A DNA stretch of 64,000 nucleotides from Gracilimonas tropica DSM 19535 (lineage in GTDB: Bacteria > Bacteroidota > Rhodothermia > Balneolales > Balneolaceae). The position numbers and the translations under genes were made by a program. The notes beneath the pieces are model-generated. The model was not told the DNA's origin. It did not search any database and saw only the letters and a program-made list of their open reading frames with translations. Below are positions 49,043 to 64,000 of the stretch, piece after piece (position 1 is the stretch's first letter; each line of letters opens with the position of its first letter). Where the stretch lies: NCBI RefSeq assembly GCF_000375425.1, contig NZ_AQXG01000008.1:62001-126000 (forward strand), written 5' to 3'.

Positions 49043-50410
49043 TCAAAACCGCAGCGTAAACGTAGATCCTTTTCCCTTTTCAGAATTCAGGATCAAGCTG
49101 CCACCGTGCAAGCGCATGATCTGCCGGGATAAACTTAGCCCGATCCCTGAGCCTTTTGTTTTTCCATTTCCACCAACCGTATAGAAGGGAATGAAGATCT
49201 TTTCCTTCATCGCTTTTTTCACACCGGGACCGTTATCCTGGATATGAATGACCGTGCGACCCGATTCATCGATCTCTCCTCTCAATATTACTTTTCCTCG
49301 TTCCTGCTCATCCAATACCCGGATTGCATTTTTCGTTAGATTGATCAGCACCTGCTCCACCAAATGCGGATCTGCCGTCAGCTCTAAACTCTCAGGGTCA
49401 CAGGCTATATTAATGTCAACTCCTACTTCTTCAGCCTGATTTTTCATCAAACTCGAAGTTCTTTTTAAGACCTCCATCACGCTAAATTGCTCAAAATTTG
49501 GATCGGGAATCTGCGTAAAATCTCGATAAGAATTCACAAACCGCATCAAACCCTGACTTCGGTTACTGATGGTATTCAACGCTTCGGTCACATCCTGAAT
49601 GGTTTCGGTATTCAACTTTACCTCCTCTTTTTCGGGGTCGAGGTGTTCTTCCAGCAGCATCTTCACCGTTCCGGAAAGTGAAGAGATCGGCGTAATGGAA
49701 TTCATGATCTCGTGCGCCAGAACCTGCGTCAAATTTTGCCAGGCTTCCATCTCTTTTTCTTCCAGTTCGGTATGAATGTTTTGGAATGAAATGAGCTTAT
49801 ATGCTTCATCCCGCATCCTGAATTCTGTCGCGTACATGGCCAACTGCAAGGTTTCATTTTGAACCGTGATTCGAATCAGGCTACGCGTTCCGCCTTTCTG
49901 CTTTTTAACCGATTCATAAAGTTTTTCAGAGATGGATTTTAGCGAATCAACCGTCCTGATCGTTGCCACTTTGAACAATCGTTTTGCCGCGGTATTCAGT
50001 AACACCACCTCGCCATTCCCATTCACACACATCAACCCAATACCTATATGCTGCACCACCGTTTCCAGATACCGAATGCTCTCCTCCTTCTCGCTCCGCT
50101 CTTCCTTGAACCGATCGATCACTTCACTAAAGGAGGCATTCAATTCATCAAAATTACTCCCCAACCCGTGATTTCGGAATGAACCGGTGAAATCGGAATA
50201 ACGGATGGCATCCAGAAAACGAGTCAACAATACATTCGTCCGTTCCAGGTAGTGGATCAGCGAAACGATCTCCCCAATGATGATCACCCCAAGAATACTT
50301 ATGCTCACGTAATAAGACGTCTCCAGTATCAGATACATCAATCCCAGTAGCGAAAGCGCCAGCAACGCCACACGAACAATTATTCCGAACCGAAAGGATT
50401 TGAAGATCAT
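49043..50410 (-). CDS. Sensor histidine kinase, NtrY-like
   Basis: A 455-residue kinase. Two membrane helices near the N terminus (about 10-28 and 33-53) leave almost no periplasmic loop, so it probably senses within the membrane or cytoplasm. A HAMP-like segment and a PAS domain (about 113-215) follow. HisKA has His233 in LAHEIMNSITPISSLSG; HATPase has NLTKNAIRVL, DNGPGVKKAM and GSGIGLSLSRQIM. It lies downstream of the sigma-54 response regulator gene on the same strand and is its evident partner. An AGCTGA-type inverted repeat separates the two genes. Confidence 0.92.
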   Translation of the reverse strand: MIFKSFRFGIIVRVALLALSLLGLMYLILETSYYVSISILGVIIIGEIVSLIHYLERTNVLLTRFLDAIRYSDFTGSFRNHGLGSNFDELNASFSEVIDRFKEERSEKEESIRYLETVVQHIGIGLMCVNGNGEVVLLNTAAKRLFKVATIRTVDSLKSISEKLYESVKKQKGGTRSLIRITVQNETLQLAMYATEFRMRDEAYKLISFQNIHTELEEKEMEAWQNLTQVLAHEIMNSITPISSLSGTVKMLLEEHLDPEKEEVKLNTETIQDVTEALNTISNRSQGLMRFVNSYRDFTQIPDPNFEQFSVMEVLKRTSSLMKNQAEEVGVDINIACDPESLELTADPHLVEQVLINLTKNAIRVLDEQERGKVILRGEIDESGRTVIHIQDNGPGVKKAMKEKIFIPFYTVGGNGKTKGSGIGLSLSRQIMRLHGGSLILNSEKGKGSTFTLRF

Positions 50411-50416
50411 TTTTGA

Positions 50417-50529
50417 GCAATCAGCTGTCAGCCATCAGGCTTCAGCTATTTTTGTTTGAGATTATAATTCTAAGTCGATCCATATTTTCAAAAAAGGCAA
50501 GAAAACTGAAAGCTGATGGCTGAAAGCTT
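50417..50529. repeat. AGCTGAAAGCTGA-family inverted repeat (regulator-kinase gap)
   Basis: Left arm GCAATCAGCTGTCAGCC...TTCAGCTATTTT at 50417-50452 and right arm AAAACTGAAAGCTGATGGC...AAGCTT at 50502-50529, separated by a 49-bp unpaired centre. Confidence 0.75.
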
Positions 50530-50534
50530 TCTTC

Positions 50535-51908
50535 CTACAATCCATACTTCTCCAGTCTTCGGTAAAGAGAGGCTCTCGTCAACCCTAACTCATCGGCCGC
50601 ATGCGAGATATTTCCTTCGTGCTTGTCCATGGCTTTGCGGATGACCGTTTTCTCCACTTCTTCCAAATTTAATCCGGCCACAGGAAGTTGGTCATTGTTT
50701 TCGGGTCTGGAGGTCAGCAAGAAATCTCCTTTTTGTAATTCATCCTCATCAGTCATGATCACAGCACGTTCCACGGCATGTTCCAGTTCCCGAATATTTC
50801 CCGGCCAATGGTATTCTTTTAAGTGATCGGTGGCCTGTTCGGTGATCCCATGAATTTCTTTCTTATACTTCGTTCGATACTTCTTCAAAAAATGCTCGAT
50901 TAGTAGAGGGATGTCTTCCATTCGCTCCCGTAGCGGAGGCAACTTCACTTCAATCGTATTGATCCGATACAACAGATCCTGCCGAAAATCCTGATTTTTT
51001 ACCATTTCCCCAAGATTCTCATTGGTAGCGCACACCAGCCGAATATTGATCTTGGAAGTTTTGTTGGAGCCGATTCGTCGAATCTCATGCGTTTGTAAGG
51101 CCGATAGTAATTTGGGTTGTAGCTGAAGCGGAATATTCCCGATCTCATCCAGAAAAAGGGTCCCTCCATTGGCAATTTCAAACCGACCGGCCCTTGATTC
51201 TTTGGCATCGGTAAAAGCTCCTTTTTCATGACCGAATAGCTCACTTTCAAACAGACTTTCCGGCAATGCCCCCATATCCACCGAAATGAACACATTCTCA
51301 CTGCGATTGGACCGCCGGTGCAACGCCCGTGCTACCAACTCCTTCCCGGTTCCATTTTCTCCGGTGATAAGCACATTGGCATCGGTTTTGGCCACCTTTT
51401 CAATGGTTTGAAACACCTGTTCCATCGCCCGACTCTCCCCAATGATATTCTGATACGGCTGTTCCATATCTGCCTTGAGGACAGCATTTTGAGTTTTAAG
51501 TCGTTGGGAATCGCGCTTGCTTTGGCTGAGGTTCATGGCCGAGGTGACCGTCGCTAACAGTTTTTCATTTTGCCAGGGTTTCAGCACAAAATCGGAAGCG
51601 CCCATTTTAACAGCTTGAACGGCTTTCTCTACATCTCCATAAGCTGTAATCAGCACCACCGCCATCGCCGGATCGATCTCAAGAATTTTCTCCAGCCACG
51701 TAAAACCTTCTTCCCCGCTGCTTACATCTTCCGTGAAATTCATATCCAAAAGTACCGTGTCATAATCGTACTCCTTCAGCAAAGCTGGAATCAGCTTGGG
51801 ATTGGTTTCCACATCCACTTTTTCCACGTGTTGCTTGAGATACAGACGCGCCGCATTCAGCACGTCCGTATCGTCATCAACCACTAAAATTCGTCCGGTT
51901 TTTTTCAT
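50535..51908 (-). CDS. Sigma-54-dependent response regulator, NtrC family
   Basis: 457 residues. The receiver domain (about 5-122) has Asp55 as phosphoacceptor and an insertion after it (NFTEDVSSGEEGF). The AAA+ domain (about 152-380) has Walker A GENGTGKE at 183-190 and Walker B GGTLFLDEIG. The sigma-54 contact loop reads GAFTDA (230-235), not the canonical GAFTGA; this variant retains the Phe-Thr core. The C-terminal Fis-type helix-turn-helix (about 420-457) ends HAADELGLTRASLYRRLEKYGL. It is the likely activator of the two matched sigma-54 promoters at 52159 and 56575. It is divergent from the adaptor gene. Confidence 0.94.
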   Translation of the reverse strand: MKKTGRILVVDDDTDVLNAARLYLKQHVEKVDVETNPKLIPALLKEYDYDTVLLDMNFTEDVSSGEEGFTWLEKILEIDPAMAVVLITAYGDVEKAVQAVKMGASDFVLKPWQNEKLLATVTSAMNLSQSKRDSQRLKTQNAVLKADMEQPYQNIIGESRAMEQVFQTIEKVAKTDANVLITGENGTGKELVARALHRRSNRSENVFISVDMGALPESLFESELFGHEKGAFTDAKESRAGRFEIANGGTLFLDEIGNIPLQLQPKLLSALQTHEIRRIGSNKTSKINIRLVCATNENLGEMVKNQDFRQDLLYRINTIEVKLPPLRERMEDIPLLIEHFLKKYRTKYKKEIHGITEQATDHLKEYHWPGNIRELEHAVERAVIMTDEDELQKGDFLLTSRPENNDQLPVAGLNLEEVEKTVIRKAMDKHEGNISHAADELGLTRASLYRRLEKYGL

Positions 51909-51988: not shown

Positions 51989-52066
51989 CATTACCCTATG
52001 CCAATTCCATACCATTTGTAACATTTCGGCTTTAAATCAGTCTTGATGATAGTTTTGGGATTTTCG

Positions 52067-52105
52067 ACTGTCCGATATCGAACACCAGGTGTTGGAATGT
52101 GAACA
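52067..52105 (+). promoter_or_regulatory. Tandem enhancer sites of the adaptor operon
   Basis: Site 1 TGTCCGATATCGAACA (52069-52084) is a near-perfect inverted repeat. Site 2 TGTTGGAATGTGAACA (52090-52105) starts 21 bp later, two helical turns. The intervening CACCAGGTG also forms a small palindrome. The same arrangement occurs at 56483-56521. The distance to the downstream -24 element (90 bp from site 1) is right for a sigma-54 activator. Confidence 0.8.
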
Positions 52106-52158
52106 ATAATTAGGAAAGAATCATCCTTATTTCACTTTTAACTGTGGTTGGCTTAGTT

Positions 52159-52174
52159 TGGCACGCATCTTGAA
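52159..52174 (+). promoter_or_regulatory. Sigma-54 promoter of the adaptor/ATPase operon
   Basis: TGGCAC-GCATC-TTGA: -24 GG and -12 element with consensus spacing, one mismatch to TTGC at -12. It is 161 bp before the adaptor start codon. A half element of the AGCTGA repeat family lies in the leader (52257-52291). Confidence 0.8.
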
Positions 52175-52334
52175 ATTACGGTACACAAAGTGAAGTTATT
52201 CTTTCGCGTTTGAAACCAAAAATCACAATGAACGTCAGATACTCACCAATTCAAACTAAAAGCTGAGCGCTAAATGCTGATGGCTTTTGTACTTGAAATA
52301 ATAACTAAGGATATAAATTATAGGCTTTACCCTT

Positions 52335-53591
52335 ATGGGAATGGATCGAAAAATTGAGAAGAAAACCTGGACCTTGAAACGGATCTTAATGATTGCCGCG
52401 ATCGTGGCTTTTGTGGGACTCAGCATTTACGCGTTCTGGTTCATGGATGTGCGCTCCACTTTGAATGTTGAACGAGAAAAGATCACCATCTCAGAAGTTC
52501 GGGAAGACACTTTTCAGGAATTCATTCAGGTTACCGGTACAGTTCAACCCATACAAACCATTTACCTGGATGCCATCGAAGGCGGTGTGATTCAAAATGT
52601 GTATCTGGAATCCGGCACGATGGTCGAAAAAGGAGACACCATTCTCACCCTTACTAACTCAGGCCTGCAGCTTCAGGTAATGGGACAAACGAATGGCCTG
52701 TACGATCAGATCAACAATACTCGAAATTCTCGTTTGGCACTTGAACAAAATACCCTTCGATTGCAAGAACAACTGGCCAATGCCCGATCTCAAATGGAGA
52801 TCCTGAGGGGGCAATACGAACGCCAACAAAAACTGATTGAACGAGACCTTATTTCAGAAGAAGAATTCCAGACCACTAAAGAAAACTATGAATTTCAGAA
52901 GCAGCGGTACGAGTTAACCTATGAATCGTATGTCAAAGATTCGGTTCAAACCATACGACAAATGCAGCAGTTGGATCAATCAGAACAACGGATGTACCAA
53001 AACCTGGAGGCTGTTCAGCAAATTCTGGATAATCTCACAGTCAAAGCACCAATAACGGGACAGTTGAGTACGATCGAGCTCAATCAGGGACAGTCAATTT
53101 CATCCGGCGAGCGTATTGGTCAGGTCGATATTCTGGACAATTATAAAGTCCGTGTGGCGATTGATGAGTATCACCTTTCAAGAATTACACAAGGACTTCG
53201 TGGTTCTTTCAACTTTGATGGACAAACCCATGAGCTTGAGATCACCAAAATTTATCCGGTGATCAACAACGGGCAGTTTGAAGTGGATATGGAATTTGTG
53301 AATGAAGCACCGAATAATTTACGCAGGGGTCAGACGGTTCGAATTCGCCTTGAATTGGGTGAATCGGCCAGTGCGGTTCAAATTCCCCGGGGCGGATTTT
53401 ACCAAACCACCGGCGGTAACTGGGTTTTTGTTGTGAATGATGACGAAGGCCGCGCCTACCGCAGAGAAATTAGATTAGGCCGGCAGAACCCCGAATATTT
53501 TGAAGTGCAATTTGGCCTGGAACCGGGCGAGAAAGTGATTACCTCGAGCTATGATACTTTCGGCGACAATGAAGTGCTTGTTTTAGAGTAG
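52335..53591 (+). CDS. HlyD/MacA-like membrane fusion (adaptor) protein
   Basis: 418 residues. N-terminal membrane anchor (about 17-35), lipoyl half (VYLESGTMVEKGDTILTL), a long coiled-coil hairpin (about 115-225, rich in Gln and Glu), the second lipoyl half (LTVKAPITGQLSTIELNQGQ), a beta-barrel domain and a membrane-proximal domain to the end. It links an inner-membrane ABC permease to an outer-membrane channel; no TolC-like gene is in the window. The first gene under the sigma-54 promoter; the ATPase follows. Start at 52335 (MGMDRK); the second Met, at 52341, is equally possible. Confidence 0.9.
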   Translation: MGMDRKIEKKTWTLKRILMIAAIVAFVGLSIYAFWFMDVRSTLNVEREKITISEVREDTFQEFIQVTGTVQPIQTIYLDAIEGGVIQNVYLESGTMVEKGDTILTLTNSGLQLQVMGQTNGLYDQINNTRNSRLALEQNTLRLQEQLANARSQMEILRGQYERQQKLIERDLISEEEFQTTKENYEFQKQRYELTYESYVKDSVQTIRQMQQLDQSEQRMYQNLEAVQQILDNLTVKAPITGQLSTIELNQGQSISSGERIGQVDILDNYKVRVAIDEYHLSRITQGLRGSFNFDGQTHELEITKIYPVINNGQFEVDMEFVNEAPNNLRRGQTVRIRLELGESASAVQIPRGGFYQTTGGNWVFVVNDDEGRAYRREIRLGRQNPEYFEVQFGLEPGEKVITSSYDTFGDNEVLVLE

Positions 53592-53664
53592 CTGTCAGCC
53601 GTCAGTTCTCAGCTTTCAGTTTACCTCGAAAACACTGAAAGCTGAAGTCTGATAGCTGAAAGCT
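53590..53664. repeat. AGCTGAAAGCTGA-family inverted repeat (adaptor-ATPase)
   Basis: Left arm AGCTGTCAGCCGTCAG...CTTTCAGTTT at 53590-53622, right arm AACACTGAAAGCTGAAG...GAAAGCT at 53631-53664. The left arm begins with the AG of the adaptor TAG stop codon, as at 35260. Confidence 0.8.
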
Positions 53665-53735
53665 TTATAGTTAGAGCATCTAACACCTAATTCCTTACAA
53701 AATTTTAAAAGACCATTAAACCAAATACTGAAACC

Positions 53736-54425
53736 ATGATTCAAACAAAAAATCTAAAAAAGGTCTACACAACTGAAGAAGTGGAAACCACTGCGTTAAG
53801 CAACGTGAATCTCGAAATTAATGAAGGGGAATTTGTAGCTATTATGGGTCCTTCGGGATGCGGGAAATCTACTCTACTTAATATCATGGGACTGCTCGAC
53901 AATCCCTCTGACGGCGAGTATCATTTCCTGGGGCATGAGATTTCCAATCACTCTGAGCGGGAACGAGCTCAGCTTCGCAAAGGAAACATCGGTTTCATCT
54001 TCCAGAGCTTTAACCTGATCGACGAGCTGACGGTATTCGAAAATGTGGAACTGCCGCTCCTTTATCTGGGTGTTGATTCTGCCGAGCGTAAAGAAAAAGT
54101 AGAAACCGCGCTCGACCGTATGGGTATGATGCACCGCCGTAATCACTTTCCTCAGCAGCTCTCCGGTGGACAGCAACAGCGTGTAGCCATTGCACGCGCC
54201 GTAGTAGCCAACGCCAAACTCATTCTTGCCGATGAGCCCACCGGTAACCTGGATTCCGATCATGGTGACGAAGTGATGAAGCTTTTGGCCGAACTCAACG
54301 AAGCCGGAACAACGATCGTGATGGTAACCCACTCGCCTCACGATGCTGACTATGCCCGACGTGTCATCCACTTATTTGATGGTCATGTGGTGACTGAGAA
54401 CATGCAGGAAGGTTTTCATGTGTAA
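53736..54425 (+). CDS. ABC transporter ATP-binding protein, MacB/LolD type
   Basis: 229 residues. Walker [11 protein letters not shown]-loop FIFQSFNL, signature [14 protein letters not shown], Walker [14 protein letters not shown]-loop VTHS. It lacks its own permease domain, so it must serve the FtsX-type permeases encoded after 56705, which have no ATPase of their own in the window. In the same operon as the adaptor. Confidence 0.93.
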
Positions 54426-54426
54426 T

Positions 54427-54506
54427 AGTTCTCAGCCGTCAGCAATCAGCTTTCAGTTCCATTGATCTTGAAATTAACTGAAAGCTGAAGACTCAAAGCT
54501 GATCGC
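54427..54506. repeat. AGCTGAAAGCTGA-family inverted repeat (after ATPase)
   Basis: Left arm AGTTCTCAGCCGTCAGC...CTTTCAGTT at 54427-54458 and right arm AACTGAAAGCTGAAGAC...CTGATCGC at 54476-54506. It begins 1 bp past the stop codon. The rest of the gap to 54678 shows no gene or recognisable promoter. Confidence 0.78.
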
Positions 54507-54678
54507 ATTTGGCATGTTATGATCTGCCGGACATTTTGGACTTCCTGGGGAGTTTAGGATCCTAAGAAATTTGTACCGGGTTTAGTACCATCGGCATATT
54601 CGTAAAAAGTATTTTCTGATACAGCCATAGTTTTTACCTTGAGCTACTCTCAGAATTGATCAATACTTACCAGACTTC

Positions 54679-56214
54679 ATGCCCAAAAAAAGAACCCTCG
54701 TTTTCTTTCTGACATCTCTTTTTATTTATTCAGGATGTCAACCGGTTAAGAACTTACTTAAGAAACCACAACCCAAAGAATTTCCCCAGGTTCAACGCGA
54801 ATTCCGTGCAGCCTGGGTGGCTACAGTCGCTAATATAAACTGGCCAAGTGCTCCGGGACTCCCTGTTGAACAGCAGCAGGAAGAAGCGATCCAACTTTTG
54901 GACCTGCTTCAACGAAATAACTTCAATGCCGTGATTTTTCAGGTACGGCCACAAGCGGATGCACTGTATAAGAGTACCTTGGAACCTTGGTCTTATTACC
55001 TGACCGGAGAGCAAGGAGTAGCTCCCGATCCGTATTATGATCCACTCAGTTTCTGGATTGAAGAAGCTCACAAACGTAACCTGGAACTTCATGTATGGCT
55101 GAATCCTTACCGGGCCCATCATACCACCGGAGGATTGATCTCCGAAAGTTCGGTCGTAAACACCAAAAGTGAACTTGTAAAAGAACTTGACAGCGGATAC
55201 TGGTGGTTCGACCCCAGTCTCAAAGCTACCCAGGATCATTCTCATGCCGTCGTGATGGATATCGTGAAACGCTACGATATTGATGGAGTCCATTTCGATG
55301 ATTACTTCTATCCCTACCCCTCTTACCACAACGGAGACTTCCCCGATGATGAAAGTTGGGAAGCGTATCAAAAATCGGGAGGAAAACTAAGCCGGGGAGA
55401 CTGGCGCCGAAAAGCCGTAGATGATTTTATTGAGCGGGTATATCGTTCCATCAAAGAAGAAAAGCCCTATGTTAGATTTGGTATCAGTCCCTTTGGAATT
55501 TGGCGTCCCGGCCATCCAAACTCTATAGAAGGATTTGATCAATACGAGGAACTCTACGCCGATGCCAAAAAATGGTTAAACGAGGGCTGGGTAGATTACT
55601 TTACTCCGCAGTTATATTGGCCGGTGAACCAGGTACCTCAAAGCTTCCCGGTATTATTGAATTGGTGGGATGAACAAAATTACAAAGACCGGGATGTATG
55701 GCCCGGAATGAGTATTGGCCGGTTTCAGGGCAATCAACAAATTGATGAGGTGCTGAATCAAATCATGATCACACGAGGTATCACTCCCAAATCACCCGGA
55801 ACGGTACACTGGAGTATTGAACCTTTGGTTGGAAATGACTCATTACAGCAAGCACTGCAAAACACTGTTTATGCGGAGCAGGCAGTGGTTCCCCCCATGG
55901 ACTGGCTCTCAAACCGTGTACCTAAAAAACCGGAGGTGAATAGTACTTTATCTACAAATTATCTCGAGGTTTCCATCCAGAAAAAGCCCGAAGAAATCGA
56001 TCATTGGACTATTTATGCCAAATATGGGAATCGATGGAAGATCAGGAAAGTGAACAAATTTACGGATCATTTCAAAGTAACTGCATACATCCCTGTTTCA
56101 CCTTCAACTGAGGAATCCCCGCATTTTCAAAAGGTGCACATTCTTGATGAAGTATTTGTAACCTATCAAAATCGATATGGTTTGGAAAGTGAGGCGACTA
56201 AAATCACTTTTTGA
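54679..56214 (+). CDS. Glycosyl-hydrolase-like (GHL10/DUF187) lipoprotein
   Basis: 511 residues. Lipoprotein signal: hydrophobic 6-17 and lipobox IYSGC, Cys20. The body is a GHL10 TIM barrel with REFRAAWVATVANINWPS, FQVRPQADALY, HVWLNPYRAHH, DGVHFDDYFYPYP and YFTPQLYWPVNQ, which include conserved acidic residues of the family. Related proteins act on peptidoglycan or exopolysaccharide; no activity can be assigned. It lies between the ATPase and the permeases of the sigma-54 controlled transporter, which may indicate a joint envelope role. Confidence 0.9.
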   Translation: MPKKRTLVFFLTSLFIYSGCQPVKNLLKKPQPKEFPQVQREFRAAWVATVANINWPSAPGLPVEQQQEEAIQLLDLLQRNNFNAVIFQVRPQADALYKSTLEPWSYYLTGEQGVAPDPYYDPLSFWIEEAHKRNLELHVWLNPYRAHHTTGGLISESSVVNTKSELVKELDSGYWWFDPSLKATQDHSHAVVMDIVKRYDIDGVHFDDYFYPYPSYHNGDFPDDESWEAYQKSGGKLSRGDWRRKAVDDFIERVYRSIKEEKPYVRFGISPFGIWRPGHPNSIEGFDQYEELYADAKKWLNEGWVDYFTPQLYWPVNQVPQSFPVLLNWWDEQNYKDRDVWPGMSIGRFQGNQQIDEVLNQIMITRGITPKSPGTVHWSIEPLVGNDSLQQALQNTVYAEQAVVPPMDWLSNRVPKKPEVNSTLSTNYLEVSIQKKPEEIDHWTIYAKYGNRWKIRKVNKFTDHFKVTAYIPVSPSTEESPHFQKVHILDEVFVTYQNRYGLESEATKITF

Positions 56215-56482
56215 AAATGCGATTCTCTCAATCAGTGTTAAGTTTAATCATATCAATGAAAGTCTGTGAGCTGATGACGGAAGTTCAGGTGCCCTAACAA
56301 TTCATTATACCCAAAATATTCATGGTAAGAAACTGCTTTGGCGGTCAATCCTTGTCTTTCAAAAGCATCTGATAAATTGAGCGTAACGATGGTTATTTGA
56401 TACCAACATCAATATTCTTTTTAGTATGCAATAAATGTGCTTTTTTACAAACAACAGATTCGCTCAACGCAGGAAATCAATT

Positions 56483-56521
56483 ACTGTCCGCTTCTGAACA
56501 CCGGGTGTAGTAAACCGAACA
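56483..56521 (+). promoter_or_regulatory. Tandem enhancer sites of the permease operon
   Basis: Site 1 TGTCCGCTTCTGAACA (56485-56500) and site 2 TGTAGTAAACCGAACA (56506-56521), again 21 bp apart. Blocks ACTGTCCG, GAACACC and GGTGT are shared with 52067-52093, while flanking DNA is not similar. Of the 490-bp gap 56215-56704, this and the next entry are the recognisable content. Confidence 0.8.
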
Positions 56522-56574
56522 GTTTTCATGGTAAGACCCTTGTTTTCAGCGATTTTAAGGCTATTAAAAGATCT

Positions 56575-56590
56575 TGGCACACTTATTGAC
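56575..56590 (+). promoter_or_regulatory. Sigma-54 promoter of the permease operon
   Basis: TGGCAC-ACTTA-TTGA, the same core and spacing as at 52159, 130 bp before the first permease start. A half AGCTGAT element lies between them at 56678-56697. Confidence 0.8.
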
Positions 56591-56704: not shown

Positions 56705-59119
56705 ATGATTAAAAATTATCTGAAAATTGCTCTTCGTAATCTTAGAAAAAATAAAAGTCATACTATAATAAATATTGGCGGACTCTCTCTGGGTATTATC
56801 TGTTCGCTTGTTATTTTTTTGGTTATCCAGTTTGACCTGAGTTTTGATAATTGGCATACCGACAGCCATCGGATTTATCGGGTGGTTACCGAGAATACTG
56901 ATTATGGAATTTTAGATCATAACTCCGGCGGCCCCTATCCCAGAGCCGAAGCAATTCGTAATGATATCAATGGAATTGAATATGTTGCTTTAGTAAACAC
57001 TAATTTTAGATCAGCTGTGGTTTCTATCCCCGGAAGAAGCAGCACAGGAAAAAAATTCAAAGAAGAAGAGCTCGCTTTTGTTGACCCCGAATACTTCAAC
57101 ATATTTACTTATAAATGGGTAGCCGGCGATCCTGAAACCGCTCTTCAAAAACCAAATACCGTTGTTTTAACAGAAGGCTTTGCAAACAAAATGTTTCAAA
57201 GTACCGATGTAATTGGCCATTCATTGACTGTTTTCACCGAGGACTTCGTGGATGTAGAAATTACCGGGATAGTAAAAGATCCTCCCAAAAACACCGATTT
57301 TCCATTTAAAATATTTGTAGCAAGTAACTCAAGATCCAGAGCGGGCTATACCTATGCAGAAACCGATACAGAATGGTCAAGCACTTCCAGCGGATACCAA
57401 AACTATGTAAAGTTAAAGCCCGGTATAACTCCTGAAGAAATAAACAAACAATTTGACCTGCTGATCACCAAGTATAGTGGGGAGGAAGTAGCAGCAGATA
57501 AAAATTACTTTTTGCAACCTCTTTCGGACATTCATTTTGATGCCCGATTTGACAATTACTCCGGGCGCATCATAGAAAAGAAAACATTATTAGCGCTTGG
57601 TATTATTGGATTTTTGCTTCTACTAACAGCATGCATCAATTTTGTAAATTTAAACACAGCCATAGCTGTTCACCGATCAAAAGAAGTAGGACTTCGGAAA
57701 ACGTTAGGTGGAACCAAAACTCAGCTTACGCTTCATTTTTTGGGTGAGACCGCACTTATTGCATTGATTTCTATCATTTTAGGAATTGGTATCACTGAGG
57801 TAGTATTACATGGTATTGAACCTATACTTGGTTTTACCCCTGTATTGAACCTGTTTTCAAACCCGGAATTAATACTCTTTTTAGGGCTTCTTTTTATTGT
57901 GATAACAATTGCGGCAGGGTGGTATCCGGCACGCCATCTTTCAAGTTATAGTCCTATTGATGCTATTCGAAATAAAATCAATGCAAGTTATGGACAGGGG
58001 CTTGTACTTCGTCGCAGCCTTATCATTATTCAATTTGCGATCACTCAAATCCTTGTGATTGGCACTGTTATAATTTCCAGCCAAATTAAATTCTTTCAGT
58101 CCAAAGATCTTGGATATAACAAAGAAGCTATTGTAGAAGTCACCATACCAAATGATGACGAACAAGTTCTGAACACCTTCAAGAATCAGCTTCTTAATGA
58201 ATCCGGTATTCAAAATATAACCTTCTCTAACACCGGAACTACGAGTAATAATACCTGGTCGGCCAACTATCTGATCATGAAAGATAGTGTCCGGTTTGAA
58301 AATAACGCCCATGTCAAATTTGTAGATAACGATTTTGTAGAAACCTATGGTCTTACCATCTTAGCAGGCCGAGATCTTGCCCCCTCCGATACGGTGAATG
58401 AATACCTCGTAAATGAAGCCTTTGCCAAGCAAGTTGGTTACGAAAATAATTACGAAAAACTCCTCGGAAAATATAATCGCTTTTACGGAATTGATGCTCC
58501 AATTGTAGGAGTGGTGAAAGACTTCAATACCCAATCGCTCCATACCGAACTTCCTCCTGTAGTGATTACAACAAGACGCAACTTCTACGTAGGTGCAATA
58601 CAAATTAATCAGGAGCAAACTAAAGATGCCCTATCAGCTATTGAAGAAACCTATAAGCTGGCATTTCCTGATTATGTGTTTGAATATGAATTTCTGGACG
58701 ACAGCATCGCAAAAATGTATGAACATGAGCAAAGAACCGCTCGCATAATGGATGCTTTCACCTTTGTGGCCATTGTGATTGGATATCTTGGGTTATTTGG
58801 TTTGATTTCGTACATGGCTACGACACGAACAAAAGAAATCGGGGTACGAAAAGTTTTGGGTGCTACTCTCGCTGACATTTTGAAAATCTTCGGCATGGAG
58901 TTGACTTTATTAACCGGAATTTCATTTATCGTAGCAGCTCCAATTTCCTGGTACCTGATGCAAAAATGGCTTTCAGACTTTGCCTATCGTATTGAAATTG
59001 GAGCAGAAATATTTGCTATAGCTTTTTTAGGAACCATCGTACTGGCGATACTCACCGTTGGATATAAATCCTTCTCTGCGGCTATGCAAAACCCCGTGGA
59101 CAGTTTACGAAGTGAATGA
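56705..59119 (+). CDS. ABC transporter permease, MacB-PCD/FtsX type (1 of 3)
   Basis: 804 residues. N-terminal helix (about 20-42) after the KNYLKIALRNLRKNKSHTIIN start. Periplasmic MacB-core domain to about 285. FtsX block with helices near 290, 345 and 390. A second helix-plus-periplasmic unit begins RRSLIIIQFAITQILVIGTV, and the final FtsX block (about 680-795) ends NPVDSLRSE. This duplicated layout without an ATPase domain is common in Bacteroidota. First of at least three tandem paralogues behind a sigma-54 promoter; start at the ATG at 56705. Confidence 0.92.
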   Translation: MIKNYLKIALRNLRKNKSHTIINIGGLSLGIICSLVIFLVIQFDLSFDNWHTDSHRIYRVVTENTDYGILDHNSGGPYPRAEAIRNDINGIEYVALVNTNFRSAVVSIPGRSSTGKKFKEEELAFVDPEYFNIFTYKWVAGDPETALQKPNTVVLTEGFANKMFQSTDVIGHSLTVFTEDFVDVEITGIVKDPPKNTDFPFKIFVASNSRSRAGYTYAETDTEWSSTSSGYQNYVKLKPGITPEEINKQFDLLITKYSGEEVAADKNYFLQPLSDIHFDARFDNYSGRIIEKKTLLALGIIGFLLLLTACINFVNLNTAIAVHRSKEVGLRKTLGGTKTQLTLHFLGETALIALISIILGIGITEVVLHGIEPILGFTPVLNLFSNPELILFLGLLFIVITIAAGWYPARHLSSYSPIDAIRNKINASYGQGLVLRRSLIIIQFAITQILVIGTVIISSQIKFFQSKDLGYNKEAIVEVTIPNDDEQVLNTFKNQLLNESGIQNITFSNTGTTSNNTWSANYLIMKDSVRFENNAHVKFVDNDFVETYGLTILAGRDLAPSDTVNEYLVNEAFAKQVGYENNYEKLLGKYNRFYGIDAPIVGVVKDFNTQSLHTELPPVVITTRRNFYVGAIQINQEQTKDALSAIEETYKLAFPDYVFEYEFLDDSIAKMYEHEQRTARIMDAFTFVAIVIGYLGLFGLISYMATTRTKEIGVRKVLGATLADILKIFGMELTLLTGISFIVAAPISWYLMQKWLSDFAYRIEIGAEIFAIAFLGTIVLAILTVGYKSFSAAMQNPVDSLRSE

Positions 59120-59122
59120 TAA

Positions 59123-59210
59123 ATAGCGGTCAGAGCTCAGACTTCAGCTTTCAGTTTTTCAAGGTCGAAACAACTGAAAGCTGAGAGCTGACGACTGAAT
59201 GCTAAAAGCT
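59123..59210. repeat. AGCTGAAAGCTGA-family inverted repeat (permease 1-2)
   Basis: Left arm ATAGCGGTCAGAGCTCAG...CAGTTTTT and right arm CAACTGAAAGCTGAGAGC...AAAAGCT. It nearly matches 61606-61694 base for base, and both are followed by TAAAACAATG. Confidence 0.82.
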
Positions 59211-59217
59211 TAAAACA

Positions 59218-61602
59218 ATGCTTAAAAACTACTTTAAAATTGCCTGGAGAAATTTCAGGAGAAATAAATCGTATTCTATAATTAATGTTCTCGGACTTTC
59301 CATTGGTTTGGGCAGTTTGATTTTGATCTCCCTTTTTGTCAGTGATGAACTCAGCTATGATCGCTTTCATGAAAACAGCGACGAAATCTATTTTGTAGGA
59401 AGAGAAAGCACCTTCGGGGGGAATAGCAATAAGGGTATAAGCACTCCCTTCCCGGTAGGTCCTACTATGGAAAAAGAAATTCCCGAGGTGGAACATGCTG
59501 TCGTCACGCTATACAATGGCTCTGGAGATGTGAGTACTAATAGTGAAGATTTTTCAGAAGAAGACCGTGTTTTGCATGCTTCGGAAGACTTCTTCAACAT
59601 GTTCTCTTTTCCCTTAAAAGTTGGGGATGCGAAAACCGTTCTTGCTGATCCAAATTCTGTAGTGATCACTGAAGAAATAGCCGAAAAATACTTCGGGGAT
59701 GAAGATCCACTCGGAAAAACACTGCATATCAACCGATATGAAGAAGGAGAATACATTGTCACCGGTATTGCTGAAAACATGCAGCAAAACTCCTATTTAA
59801 GCTTTGACATCATTCCTTCTATCAAAAGCACTTCTTATTCCGAGTCTCATCGTGATTCCTGGGGCTCAAGCATGTTTAATACTTACATTCAGCTTCAGGA
59901 TGGGAAAACATGGAAAGATATTAAGCCAAAGGTAGCTGAGTTGGTCGAAAAAAATCTTGGCGAGGAATCCACGGTTTCCTTCTTTCAGATTCCATTGACA
60001 GAGTTATACCTCTCTGAACATACCTCAAGCAGTGGGTTCCAGGGAAATAGTAAGTATGTGTATATTTTTTCTGCCATTGCGCTATTCATCCTGATCCTGG
60101 CATGTATCAATTATATGAACTTAGCAACGGCCAGGGCTATGCAGCGTTCCCGAGAAGTAGGGGTTAGAAAAGTGGTTGGAGCCGGCAAACCTCAGCTTGT
60201 TTTCCAATTCATTGGGGAGGCCGTATTAGTATCGGTATTCGCATTTATTGTGGGACTTTTTATTGCTGAAATTATGCTGCCTTTTTTCAATGACTTCATC
60301 GGAAAAGATTTAGCACTGAACATTTCAGAAACCGGATCTCTATTATCTCTTCTATTCCTCATCTCAATTGGAGTTGGAGTTCTCTCCGGCAGCTACCCAG
60401 CCTTCTTTCTGTCTCGGTTCAAGCCTTCAACCGTATTGAAAACCACTTCTCATCGAAGTGTAAAAGGGGGTGGTTTTAGAAAGATTTTAGTTACTCTGCA
60501 GTTTGTGGTTTCAACAGCGCTGATTATCTGCACACTTATTGCATTCAACCAATTACAGTTTGTTCAAAACAAAGATCTTGGTTTCCAGGATGATCAGGTT
60601 ATGTATATTCCCGCCCATCAGATCAGGGGTAATTTAGAAACCTTTAAAGAAATAGCACTGAATCATTCTTCGGTATTAGATGCTTCTGCTGCCACCGATA
60701 TTCCGGGAAGATTTGGGATGCGAATGGGGCAAGCCTTCGATCCTGATAATCCAGATGATCCATTTTATGCCCATCAACTAAGAACCGATGCAGATTATGA
60801 TGATGTTTTGAATTTAGAGATGGCTGCAGGTAGATTTTTTGATAAAGACCGAACAACAGACCGAGACAATGCCCGTGTTATAAATGAAGCAATGGTTGAA
60901 AGATTGGGATGGGGTGAACCGGAAAATGCCGTCAATAGAATGATCGCGGATAGTTCCACAGTTGTAGTTGGTGTCGTAAAAGACTTTCATTTCAAATCAC
61001 TCCACGAAAAGATTGGACCGGTTTATATGCAAATGAAACCTTCGGAACCAGGTACTTATACTTCATACTCAATGTTAGTTCTGAAATTCAACCCAGGGCA
61101 GGTAGAATCCCTTATCTCTTACTTACAGGAAGAGTGGAAGAATCTTTGGCCTGAAGATCCGCTGGTTTATCATTTTCTGGATGAGAAATTTGCTGAACAG
61201 TATGCTACCGATCAAAAGCTTAGTCGCGCATTTTCAGCATTTGCGTTTGTTGCCATCTTCATTGCTTGTTTAGGATTGTTTGGTTTAGCGGCATTCTCCG
61301 CTCAAAAGCGCACCAAAGAAATCGGCATCCGAAAAGTCCTGGGAGCATCGGTTGCCAACATTGTCACCCTGCTCTCCAAAGATTTTGTGAAACTGGTGAT
61401 CCTCGGTTTTGTTATCGCCATTCCCATTGCCTGGTACGCCATGAACCAATGGCTGGCTGATTTTGCGTATCGCATCGAAATTGGTCCCGGAATATTTGCC
61501 CTGGCTGGAATCGCGGCTTTGGTGATCGCTTTGCTGACGGTTAGCTGGCAATCCATCAAAGCAGCCGTAGCAAACCCCGTAGATAGTTTAAGAAGTGAAT
61601 GA
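59218..61602 (+). CDS. ABC transporter permease, MacB-PCD/FtsX type (2 of 3)
   Basis: 794 residues, same architecture as its neighbours: KNYFKIAWRNFRRNKSYSIINVLG start and N-terminal helix, MacB-core domain (about 45-280), first FtsX block (YVYIFSAIALFILILACINYMNLA onwards), second half beginning FRKILVTLQFVVSTALIICT, and a C-terminal FtsX block ending NPVDSLRSE. The last third, from RTKEIGIRKVLGASVANIVTLL onward, is almost identical in DNA to permease 3, unlike the rest of the gene. Confidence 0.92.
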   Translation: MLKNYFKIAWRNFRRNKSYSIINVLGLSIGLGSLILISLFVSDELSYDRFHENSDEIYFVGRESTFGGNSNKGISTPFPVGPTMEKEIPEVEHAVVTLYNGSGDVSTNSEDFSEEDRVLHASEDFFNMFSFPLKVGDAKTVLADPNSVVITEEIAEKYFGDEDPLGKTLHINRYEEGEYIVTGIAENMQQNSYLSFDIIPSIKSTSYSESHRDSWGSSMFNTYIQLQDGKTWKDIKPKVAELVEKNLGEESTVSFFQIPLTELYLSEHTSSSGFQGNSKYVYIFSAIALFILILACINYMNLATARAMQRSREVGVRKVVGAGKPQLVFQFIGEAVLVSVFAFIVGLFIAEIMLPFFNDFIGKDLALNISETGSLLSLLFLISIGVGVLSGSYPAFFLSRFKPSTVLKTTSHRSVKGGGFRKILVTLQFVVSTALIICTLIAFNQLQFVQNKDLGFQDDQVMYIPAHQIRGNLETFKEIALNHSSVLDASAATDIPGRFGMRMGQAFDPDNPDDPFYAHQLRTDADYDDVLNLEMAAGRFFDKDRTTDRDNARVINEAMVERLGWGEPENAVNRMIADSSTVVVGVVKDFHFKSLHEKIGPVYMQMKPSEPGTYTSYSMLVLKFNPGQVESLISYLQEEWKNLWPEDPLVYHFLDEKFAEQYATDQKLSRAFSAFAFVAIFIACLGLFGLAAFSAQKRTKEIGIRKVLGASVANIVTLLSKDFVKLVILGFVIAIPIAWYAMNQWLADFAYRIEIGPGIFALAGIAALVIALLTVSWQSIKAAVANPVDSLRSE

Positions 61603-61700: not shown

Positions 61701-64000
61701 ATGATTAAAAATTACCTGAAAATTGCTCTTCGAAATCTAAGAAAAAATAAAATTGATTCGGCCATAAGCATTGGGGGATTAGCGGTGGGTTTAGCCTGTT
61801 GTATCCTGCTGGTTTTTTATGTGCGGTTTGAATGGTCACACGACAATTTCCATGAAAATAAGGATCGGCTATACCGAATAACGGACCAAACTACCGCGAG
61901 GAATTCCGGGGAGATTCAAAAGAATTTAACCACCCCATACCCTCTTGCAGCAGTATTGGATTCAACTTTTCCTGAAATAGAGCGGGTAATGAACATTGCT
62001 TTAGGACCGGTACATATTTTAGATCGCGGCAAATTTCATCAAGTTGAGGTCACTTTTGCCGATCCCGGTTTTTTTGAAGCCTTCACCTTTCCCATTTTAT
62101 ATGGAAATTCTACATCACCACTTGAAAATCCTGATCAACTGGTGCTTACCGAAGATGAAGCCCTTCATTATTTCGGAACCAAAAATGCCGTTGGAGAAAC
62201 CCTGTCGTTCAAGCTTCACGAAACGGAATATGATCTTACTGTAGCTGCTGTAGCCGAAAACCCACCGGCCAATTCCAGCCTTACCTTCAATATTGTCCTT
62301 CCCTTCGAAAACTATTTCAGATCGGTACCTAAAGAAAGAGTGGATACCTATCGCAATAGCTGGTATATCGGATTTGGAGAAACCTGGGTTCTGCTTAATG
62401 ATAAATCTTCTGCTAAGGACCTGACCTCAAAATTCCCGGAGTTATTGAGATCTCATTTAGGCAGTTTTGCGGAAACACAACAAATGGTAATGGGGCTTCA
62501 GCCACTCAATGGAGCCTACTTCGATCAAGAATATCGGTCTTATATTACCGGCAATACCAACATTTTATACTCATCAATTTTAGGTGGAATTGCGCTGGTT
62601 ATTCTCATCATTGCAGGAATGAATTTCATGAGCCTTACCCTTAGTCGCGCTTCTCAGCGCAGTCATGAGATAGGGATTCGTAAGGCAGCAGGTGCGCAAC
62701 GGGGACAAGTCAGTTTTCAGTTATTTGGAGAAGTCTTTGTTACCTGTACCATTGCCATCCTCTTGGGGCTCATGTTAGCTGAACTCGCTTCCCCCTTCTT
62801 TCAAAACCTAACCGGCAAAGCCTTTGAAGTTTCTATCATCAGCGATCCGGTATTATGGTTCGCTTTGTTGGTCATAGTAGGCTTTATTACCATTATAACA
62901 GGCGGATATCCTGCTTTCCAAATGGCCCGAAAGAACACGGCACGTATGTTTTCATCCCGCCGAAGTACCGAACGAATTCCTTTGTTTGTGAAAGGGTTGA
63001 TCATCGCACAATTCGCCCTTTCTATCGCCTTCCTCATTGCCACTTTTACCATGAACAGTCAGCTGAACTTTCTGCTTAATAAGGATTTGGGATTCGACTC
63101 CTCCAATGTGATCACCGTGGAAATACGAAATCAGGCTGAAGCCGCAAAGCAAGCAGAATTATTTGCCGATGAAGCTCAACGACTTCCCGGAGTAGAACAG
63201 GTAGCCAAAATTGGAAGTGCCTATCGGGGCGATCCAAGATATATGCAAGCAAAAATCGGATTTGGGATGGGAACCATGGGCTCAAGCACTAGTCTGGAAG
63301 GTTTTGATCATAGTATAACCTCTGAAATTATCGATGAGCATTATCTTGAAGTTATGGGAATGGACCTTTTGGAAGGTCGAAATTTCTCCCCGGATCGTCC
63401 GTCTGAATTAAAAAATGGAATTATCATCAATGAAAAATTTGCAGAAATCATGGGATGGGATAATCCGGTAGGACAAGTCATAAAAGATAAAGCCGAGGGC
63501 TGGACGCCTCCATTTGATGGCAAAGAAGTAATTGGTGTGGTAGATAATTTTCATTTTCGACCTCTTTATGAACAACTTCAACCCATTGCCCTTCAGCATT
63601 TAGAAGGAGCTGGGTTTGATGTTCCCGGAACCATACTTATAAAATCCCGACCAGGAATGCTCAGCGAAACCGTCGATCAGCTTTCTGCTCTTTGGAATGA
63701 AGTATTACCTTCTGCTACCTTCAATTACAGTTTTTTAGATGAGCTGGTGGAAATGCAATATCAGGAAGAGCAACGCTGGCGGAATATCATCTGGTTCGCT
63801 TCCATTATGGCAGTTGCACTTGCCAGTTTTGGTTTATTCGGATTAGCTGCTTTAGCAGCCGAACGCAGAACTAAAGAAATCGGCATCCGAAAAGTCCTCG
63901 GGGCTTCGGTTGCCAACATTGTAACTCTGCTTTCCAAAGATTTTGTGAAACTGGTGATCCTCGGTTTTGTGATCGCCATTCCCATTGCCTGGTACGCCAT
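61701..64000 (+). CDS. ABC transporter permease, MacB-PCD/FtsX type (3 of 3, cut by window end)
   Basis: Open from the ATG at 61701 (MIKNYLKIALRNLRKNKID) to the window edge, 766 codons without a stop. N-terminal helix GLAVGLACCILLVFYV, MacB-core domain, FtsX block with GIRKAAGAQRGQ, second half from FVKGLIIAQFALSIAFLIAT, and the C-terminal block RTKEIGIRKVLGASVANI. Probably about 30-35 codons are missing at the 3' end. Its first 50 bp closely match permease 1 and its last 130 bp closely match permease 2, a mosaic relation. Confidence 0.9.
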   Translation, partial: MIKNYLKIALRNLRKNKIDSAISIGGLAVGLACCILLVFYVRFEWSHDNFHENKDRLYRITDQTTARNSGEIQKNLTTPYPLAAVLDSTFPEIERVMNIALGPVHILDRGKFHQVEVTFADPGFFEAFTFPILYGNSTSPLENPDQLVLTEDEALHYFGTKNAVGETLSFKLHETEYDLTVAAVAENPPANSSLTFNIVLPFENYFRSVPKERVDTYRNSWYIGFGETWVLLNDKSSAKDLTSKFPELLRSHLGSFAETQQMVMGLQPLNGAYFDQEYRSYITGNTNILYSSILGGIALVILIIAGMNFMSLTLSRASQRSHEIGIRKAAGAQRGQVSFQLFGEVFVTCTIAILLGLMLAELASPFFQNLTGKAFEVSIISDPVLWFALLVIVGFITIITGGYPAFQMARKNTARMFSSRRSTERIPLFVKGLIIAQFALSIAFLIATFTMNSQLNFLLNKDLGFDSSNVITVEIRNQAEAAKQAELFADEAQRLPGVEQVAKIGSAYRGDPRYMQAKIGFGMGTMGSSTSLEGFDHSITSEIIDEHYLEVMGMDLLEGRNFSPDRPSELKNGIIINEKFAEIMGWDNPVGQVIKDKAEGWTPPFDGKEVIGVVDNFHFRPLYEQLQPIALQHLEGAGFDVPGTILIKSRPGMLSETVDQLSALWNEVLPSATFNYSFLDELVEMQYQEEQRWRNIIWFASIMAVALASFGLFGLAALAAERRTKEIGIRKVLGASVANIVTLLSKDFVKLVILGFVIAIPIAWYA

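Follow-up and report, generated by a model that had tools for sequence, protein, structure and literature searches.

Which regulator reads a tandem operator that stands twice at exactly the same distance from a sigma-54-like promoter element, and what does it switch on? The question is raised by a stretch of 64,000 nucleotides from Gracilimonas tropica DSM 19535 (Bacteroidota, Balneolaceae; contig NZ_AQXG01000008.1, positions 62,001 to 126,000), here called the window, to which all plain coordinates refer. Direct reading finds ACTGTCCG-N5-GAACACC-N-GGTGT at 52067 and at 56483, and in each case a second site of the form TGT-N7-YGAACA (at 52090 and 56506) lies 21 bp past the first TGT and a TGGCAC-N5-TTGA element (at 52159 and 56575) lies 92 bp past the first base of the block, or 90 bp past its TGT. 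A preliminary description of this DNA had reported the two blocks, the 21-bp second sites and the 92-bp elements, and its coordinates are all borne out. Such modules very probably serve a single two-component system as composite sigma-54 control elements. Evenly balanced, in our judgement, is the wider proposal that the tandem operator, a spacer with a static curve and the promoter make up a rigid unit in fixed helical register, often mirrored on the regulator side, through which a single activator across several phyla wires scattered stand-alone ATP-binding cassette (ABC) permeases to a shared ATPase and adaptor set. If true, this rigid composite element departs from the textbook sigma-54 enhancer acting over variable distances, and explains how 'orphan' permeases are run.

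The modules and their fixed geometry

Module 1 comprises, on the plus strand, a distal operator site TGTCCGATATCGAACA (52069..52084) recognised in the sequence and by the genome scan, a proximal site TGTTGGAATGTGAACA 21 bp from it (52090..52105), a spacer of 53 bp (52106..52158) and a sigma-54 −24/−12 element TGGCACGCATCTTGAA (52159..52174) that faces the adaptor and ATPase genes. Module 2, on the same strand, is made up of TGTCCGCTTCTGAACA (56485..56500), TGTAGTAAACCGAACA (56506..56521), again a 53-bp spacer (56522..56574) and the −24/−12 element TGGCACACTTATTGAC (56575..56590), facing a run of permeases. A third module starts 3,909 bases beyond the window end, its promoter likewise 90 bp from the TGT.

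When the tandem operator is allowed up to three mismatches, the 3.83-Mb genome (48 contigs) yields three matches, the two window copies and C8:129909, all on one contig and one strand, and the reversed control yields none; no fourth module was found in the whole genome with the patterns used. The promoter pattern TGGCAC-N5-TTGM taken by itself with one mismatch is at chance level in the window (10 matches against 7.6 expected from shuffles), and the only two exact matches there are those of the modules. Similarly the lone site TGTCCG-N5-GAACA with one mismatch is unspecific, with 51 matches against 30 in the reversed control, while the tandem pair is specific. A fourth exact single-site match, at C24:6476, was rejected as it lies on an unrelated contig and has no second site.

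Across 192 unique modules the operator resolves into two 16-bp palindromes, TGTNC[G/A]-N4-[C/T]GNACA, in tandem and 21 bp (two helical turns) apart, and so the site first proposed, TGTCCG-N4-YGAACA, was too narrow. The pattern that collected these modules fixed only TGT, ACA, TGG and TTG and left the other letters free; for the named loci it additionally fixed C at position 5 and C after TGG. The TGG is followed by C in 84% and then by A in 89%, which fits a sigma-54 −24/−12 promoter. The link GAACACC-N-GGTGT seen in the window is not general, since the third copy of the same genome reads GATGT and the linker columns carry low information in the 192 modules.

The looser pattern found 88 modules in 36 genomes, 29 of them holding an orthologue of the regulator described below and seven picked for a module match in a scan of the phylum; all were selected for module or regulator and not for any exact spacing. 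The gap was left free over 31 lengths, yet 82 of the 88 matches fall in five of them, with the sigma-54 element 88 to 92 bp from the first TGT (90 in 54 modules, 89 in 16, 88 and 91 in 5 each, 92 in 2). The remaining six stand at 101 (three modules) and at 78, 79 and 97 (one each), and five of these departures amount to a shift of about one helical turn. When the gap ranges 7-37 and 69-99 were searched in the same genomes they gave one and two matches, each of them a second reading of a counted module, and reversed controls were empty for the main and for both shifted ranges. One of these second readings stems from a triple array at G028:C4:116748-116871 (loci L114 and L290), where three operator sites follow each other at 21-bp intervals ahead of a promoter. 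The claim that arrangement, operator and sigma-54 promoter are under selection is thus strongly supported by the comparative evidence.

The adjacent response regulator

The NtrC-type response regulator encoded at 50535..51908 on the minus strand has a receiver, an AAA+ sigma-54 interaction domain and a Fis-type helix-turn-helix (HTH), with PF00072, PF00158 and PF02954 all above cut-off, and it is the inferred binder of the operator. Its orthologues (at least 63% identity, more than 600 bits) are present in 29 of 93 genomes of the family, the next best protein reaching 348 bits and 40%. The operator pair followed by a gap of 38-68 bp and TGGC-N7-TTG occurs in 27 of the 93, with no reversed-control matches, and all 27 lie within the 29. 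The two other orthologue genomes, G032 and G076, have modules of a TGGT variant; none of the 64 genomes lacking an orthologue matched the TGGC pattern, the TGGT pattern having been run on the orthologue and module genomes and not on these 64. For the division 27/2/0/64 Fisher's test gives P 2e-21, ancestry uncorrected. The proposed link of the operator to the neighbouring two-component system thereby gains strong comparative support, and the sequence evidence suggests that the adjacent regulator is the operator's reader.

As a rule the operator lies between the regulator gene and the adaptor gene, which point away from each other. Among 57 distinct regulators on module loci (at least 50% identity), 56 show the C-terminus, and there the recognition helix is nearly constant. 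Their sigma-54 contact loop reads GAFTDA in 51, GAFTGA in 4 and GAYTDA in 2, the canonical GAFTGA being absent from the window regulator, which has GAFTDA. This variant is perhaps a lineage trait; it is also seen in one less related regulator, and it weakens no more than the regulator's standing as a canonical member of the NtrC type.

The modules appear to be mirrored on the regulator side. A minus-strand sigma-54-like element, TGGTATGGAATTGGCA (51999..52014), stands 91 bp from the operator when read on that strand and faces the response-regulator gene; its score is low (5.0), its GG-N10-GC is intact, and elements like it occur at this offset in congeners. Among the modules with a divergent regulator the best reverse-side promoter match lies at 86-93 bp in 29 of 52 and at 96-103 bp in 11 more. 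The 29 compare with a chance expectation of 8 in 95 positions (8.4%; P 3e-18, ancestry uncorrected), and the result is unchanged when the promoter model omits regulator-led modules. Where neither a regulator nor a second module faces the operator, 14 of 125 fall at 86-93 bp (P 0.17; 29 of 139 in the uncleaned comparison). The divergent regulator gene thus seems often to have its own in-register promoter, a feature which is new here.

Phasing of A+T in the spacer

Intrinsic bends are known to play a role at sigma-54 promoters. In the 53-bp spacer the column-wise A+T content peaks near columns 42, 52, 62, 72 and 82. In a set of 97 spacers filtered to less than 55% identity, none of 2000 circular shifts reaches the power seen at 10.3 bp (z=13), and the signal holds at a stricter identity of less than 45% (n=54, z=9.1) and, at that limit, in the phylum of Gracilimonas alone (n=17, z=5.1). 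A-tracts give a weaker measure, which in the 17 spacers of that phylum falls to z=2.7, a strength matched by 20 of 2000 shifts. This phasing is a property of the module set, not proven for the single spacer of module 1, and the oscillation of about 10 bp appears to be new here.

Spread and target genes

Conservation in relatives is wide, as the claim of selection on the arrangement requires. The operator-gap-TGGC pattern is found in 29 of 395 sampled genomes of the phylum, the family included, with no reversed-control matches, and the fixed-length pattern returns at least 119 stretches from named genomes. Among the matches listed most are from Bacteroidota (Runella, Spirosoma, Larkinella, Pontibacter, Sphingobacterium, Chitinophaga and others) and 18 of 119 come from records labelled outside that phylum. 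In eight of the 18 listed, an adaptor follows the module and a regulator with 50-61% identity is present; these are three gammaproteobacterial metagenome-assembled genomes (one of Woeseiaceae), an unclassified proteobacterium, two Aminicenantes, a Neomarinimicrobiota and an Acidobacteria record, all under the records' own taxon labels, and assembled metagenomes may be misbinned.

The target genes are of few kinds (duplicates of one sequence being counted once). In the 130 modules of the 119 listed loci the first gene on the same strand is a permease in 44, an adaptor in 24, an ATPase in 8 and a regulator in 8; in 18 a small open reading frame (ORF) and then a permease follow, 18 lead some other gene and 10 have none in view. 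Hence 102 of the 130 lead one of these four classes, 18 of them via one small unassigned ORF. In the phylum of Gracilimonas, with 72 modules in 51 loci, the first gene is a permease in 32, an adaptor in 25, a regulator in 6 and an ATPase in 1, a small ORF and then a permease in 1, another gene in 6 and none in 1, and so 65 of 72 reach these target classes. The motif is not equally common inside genes, as only 13 of the 130 and 5 of the 72 modules overlap an ORF of more than 150 amino acids, several of them only at a 5' end that is probably over-extended.

Pfam searches with 10 of the 43 unassigned first genes gave a beta-lactamase fold in four, an outer-membrane efflux protein in three, PadR in two and DUF4097 in one. 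A PF00144 beta-lactamase-fold gene is sometimes first after the module (L099, L107, L169, L215), and in G. tropica itself a PF00144 gene (L009:13125-14183) sits in a cluster with no module. Often, as in L134, L225 and similar loci of Spirosoma, Larkinella and Runella, a small ORF separates the module from a large stand-alone permease; the two tested are PadR-type.

No ATPase or adaptor lies within 4.5 kb of 83 of the 95 permease-led modules, many of the named loci being 8-kb tiles, with some partners perhaps outside them. That most permease-led modules stand without an ATPase nearby appears new here, and because of it the shared operator would probably keep stand-alone permeases in step with one ATPase and adaptor set.

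Contrary results and alternative explanations

Several results weigh against the modules being a sigma-54 control unit of this kind and are gathered here with the alternatives. The base after TTG is A in 35%, G in 29%, T in 21% and C in 15% of modules, the −12 C not being conserved. A scan of 58 relatives for the tandem pair, with two mismatches and no promoter required, matched 17 genomes; it also gave two reversed-control matches, and two order-level matches look like chance. The module-led runs hold only 7 of the 12 large permeases of the G. tropica genome; a scan of the window and of loci L009, L255, L257, L262, L265, L266, L268 and L269 detected no module at the remaining five (two on C7, one on C4, and those at C8:65k and C8:140k).

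As regards the spacer, the side of the operator opposite the promoter, where no regulator gene lies, is itself weakly phased (power 0.021, n=116, z=4.5, above all 2000 shifts). It is surpassed by the main side taken without regulator-led modules (0.080, n=91, z=12.7) and by the regulator side taken without stretches counted as modules (0.054, n=31, z=4.9), and the A+T pattern would thus belong chiefly to the interval between operator and promoter. For comparison, promoters of other sigma-54 activators were sought and none passed the filter; phasing may for that reason be a common property of sigma-54 promoters in these taxa. The alternative that phased A+T involves no static bend, and reflects either minor-groove contacts (by the alpha subunits of RNA polymerase or an HU-like protein) or a trait common to sigma-54 promoters in these bacteria, is a real possibility, if short of probable. 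It draws on the position of the blocks at roughly −35 to −75, since alpha-subunit contacts are known there at other promoters, and on the control promoters that could not be assembled. Five blocks with a steady period of about 10 bp back to the operator suit curvature, and a spacing change of one turn keeps the register.

Improbable, on the co-occurrence given above, is an activator other than the adjacent response regulator as reader of the operator. Further NtrC-type regulators are present in family genomes and binding of the operator by the regulator is a prediction, and a few loci match without a regulator orthologue in view: a Comamonas locus and three alphaproteobacterial loci, which show no transporter in view either. 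All 29 orthologue genomes have modules, however, and none of the 64 without one matched the TGGC pattern; the operator, whose place is usually between the genes for regulator and adaptor, is accompanied by a conserved HTH. In the alphaproteobacterial loci L129, L131 and L195, two labelled Niveispirillum, the operator pair is followed by TGGC at offset 90 and the regulator orthologue was not seen.

That the modules are one promoter copied by recent duplication, its fixed spacing inherited without function, is very improbable. Many downstream genes are indeed paralogous, and the spacers of the three G. tropica modules are slightly more alike than shuffles (identities 0.38, 0.40 and 0.43 against 0.29-0.30; P 0.10, 0.07 and 0.025), and so the remark in the preliminary description that the DNA between is otherwise unrelated was nearly right, this slight excess apart. 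The excess could come from the periodic A+T pattern. Against duplication, the spacers have diverged almost fully while operator, promoter and spacing are kept, the modules outside 88-92 are shifted by about one turn in five cases out of six, and distant families and phyla show the arrangement in front of genes of different types.

The gene rpoN was not found in the draft assembly of G. tropica (48 contigs, 98.8% complete; TIGR02395, PF04552). It is present in all ten congeners searched, and a match to the sigma-54 DNA-binding domain lies above cut-off in 34 of 38 genomes; its absence is likely to reflect an assembly gap. A sigma-70 promoter region with a repressor operator, TGGCAC-N5-TTG being incidental, would account for the missing rpoN and is scarcely credible given the concentration of the free gap in five lengths, the sigma-54 activation domain of the regulator and the sigma-54 domain in those 34 relatives.

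The partner kinase and a proposed mechanism

The partner histidine kinase (49043..50410, minus strand) has an N-terminal membrane hairpin with almost no extracytoplasmic loop, as judged from hydropathy. In all 48 kinases beside the regulator (at least 32% identity) the same measure gives adjoining N-terminal hydrophobic stretches with no gap above 25 residues, and mostly of a few residues. Pfam assigns HATPase_c to the partner kinase, with HisKA below cut-off and nothing else. The Bce kinases of Firmicutes have two helices with a minimal loop and stand beside FtsX-type ABC transporters, and by analogy our best guess is that the signal comes from within the membrane or from the exporter.

In the mechanism that we propose, the phosphorylated regulator would occupy both sites as dimers that share one face of the helix, and would assemble its AAA+ ring there. 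The phased A+T blocks would pre-curve the short interval of about 63 bp such that the ring meets the sigma-54 RNA polymerase. Once fired, the promoters would express the MacA-like adaptor, the ATPase and a large number of permease genes, and regulator and kinase would come under positive feedback. What the hairpin kinase senses is probably a disturbance within the membrane or the state of the exporters, and the substrates are likely to be envelope-active molecules, which is the weakest step.

Relation to known systems

The regulator shares its receiver, AAA+ and Fis-type HTH architecture, and the use of tandem sites upstream of a −24/−12 promoter, with NtrC-type activators such as AtoC, ZraR and the PrsR of PEP-CTERM systems (structures such as 4l4u). 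Against NCBIfam it falls below the curated cut-off of each of the best 25 of 90 matched models. For the XrtA/PEP-CTERM pair PrsKR the scores are 430.5 against 502.6 bits (TIGR02915) and 78 against 300 bits (TIGR02916). The nearly fixed operator-promoter distance of the modules differs from the variable distances of D. vulgaris, where PMC4641369 puts most promoters less than 100 nt from a site and four more than 300 bp away; the same paper states that an NtrC enhancer can act from 15 kb.

The transporter resembles MacAB-TolC, DarBCD and ADOP in joining adaptor, ATPase and a MacB_PCD/FtsX permease, and the permease aligns with MacB structures. The window proteins are below the cut-offs of MacA and MacB models, and the fused ATPase-permease of MacB is absent here, the two being separate genes. 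ADOP (TIGR03434) scores 274.8 bits against a cut-off of 622.3, and the NCBIfam equivalogs of the darobactin exporter DarBCD score 225 of 450 (adaptor), 280.6 of 375 (ATPase) and 159 of 700 bits (permease). With the Bce-type modules of Firmicutes the system shares the two-helix, short-loop kinase; it differs in that a sigma-54 activator replaces the OmpR-type regulator and an adaptor is added, and kinase-transporter sensing is here an analogy.

Sigma-54 promoters have been predicted to be enriched before COG0577 FtsX-like permeases in Bacteroidia, Gammaproteobacteria and Opitutia, which was called first evidence (PMC12316311, PLoS One 2025); the accessible part of that paper gives no activator, operator, spacing or stand-alone-permease logic for the link. 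Among the papers found it alone seemed, by title, opening of the abstract and passages, to bear on this connection. No description of the operator, the regulator or the geometry was found in the literature searched, which covered few subscription papers, nor anything on a pairing of intramembrane sensing with sigma-54; the accessible parts of PMC9723704 and PMC3162934 hold nothing on these transporters. The modules would supply an operator with a likely activator and a list of targets for an envelope-export response that is widespread in Bacteroidota and beyond. With well over a hundred natural sequences they would also allow the short-range geometric coupling of sigma-54 enhancer and promoter to be studied, and they suggest an answer, open to test, to the question of how a permease encoded without an ATPase is paired with one.

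Genes around the modules

Module 1 leads, on the plus strand, a periplasmic adaptor of HlyD/MacA-like type (52335..53591) and a MacB/LolD-like ABC ATPase not fused to a permease (53736..54425); a GHL10 glycoside-hydrolase-like gene (54679-56214) lies between the ATPase gene and module 2. Under module 2 stand the plus-strand permeases 1 (MacB_PCD/FtsX, 56705..59119), 2 (59218..61602) and 3 (61701..64000, continuing past the window end). That module 2 precedes permeases was seen correctly at first; their number is four consecutive genes and not three, the last lying beyond the window. Pfam finds only FtsX and MacB_PCD in permease 1, the ATPase being a separate gene. Module 3 leads three permeases and an ATPase. 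Short imperfect repeats rich in AGCTGA/TCAGCT occupy intergenic gaps of the window at about 50430-50530, 53600-53660 and 54430-54510 and at 59146 and 61628.

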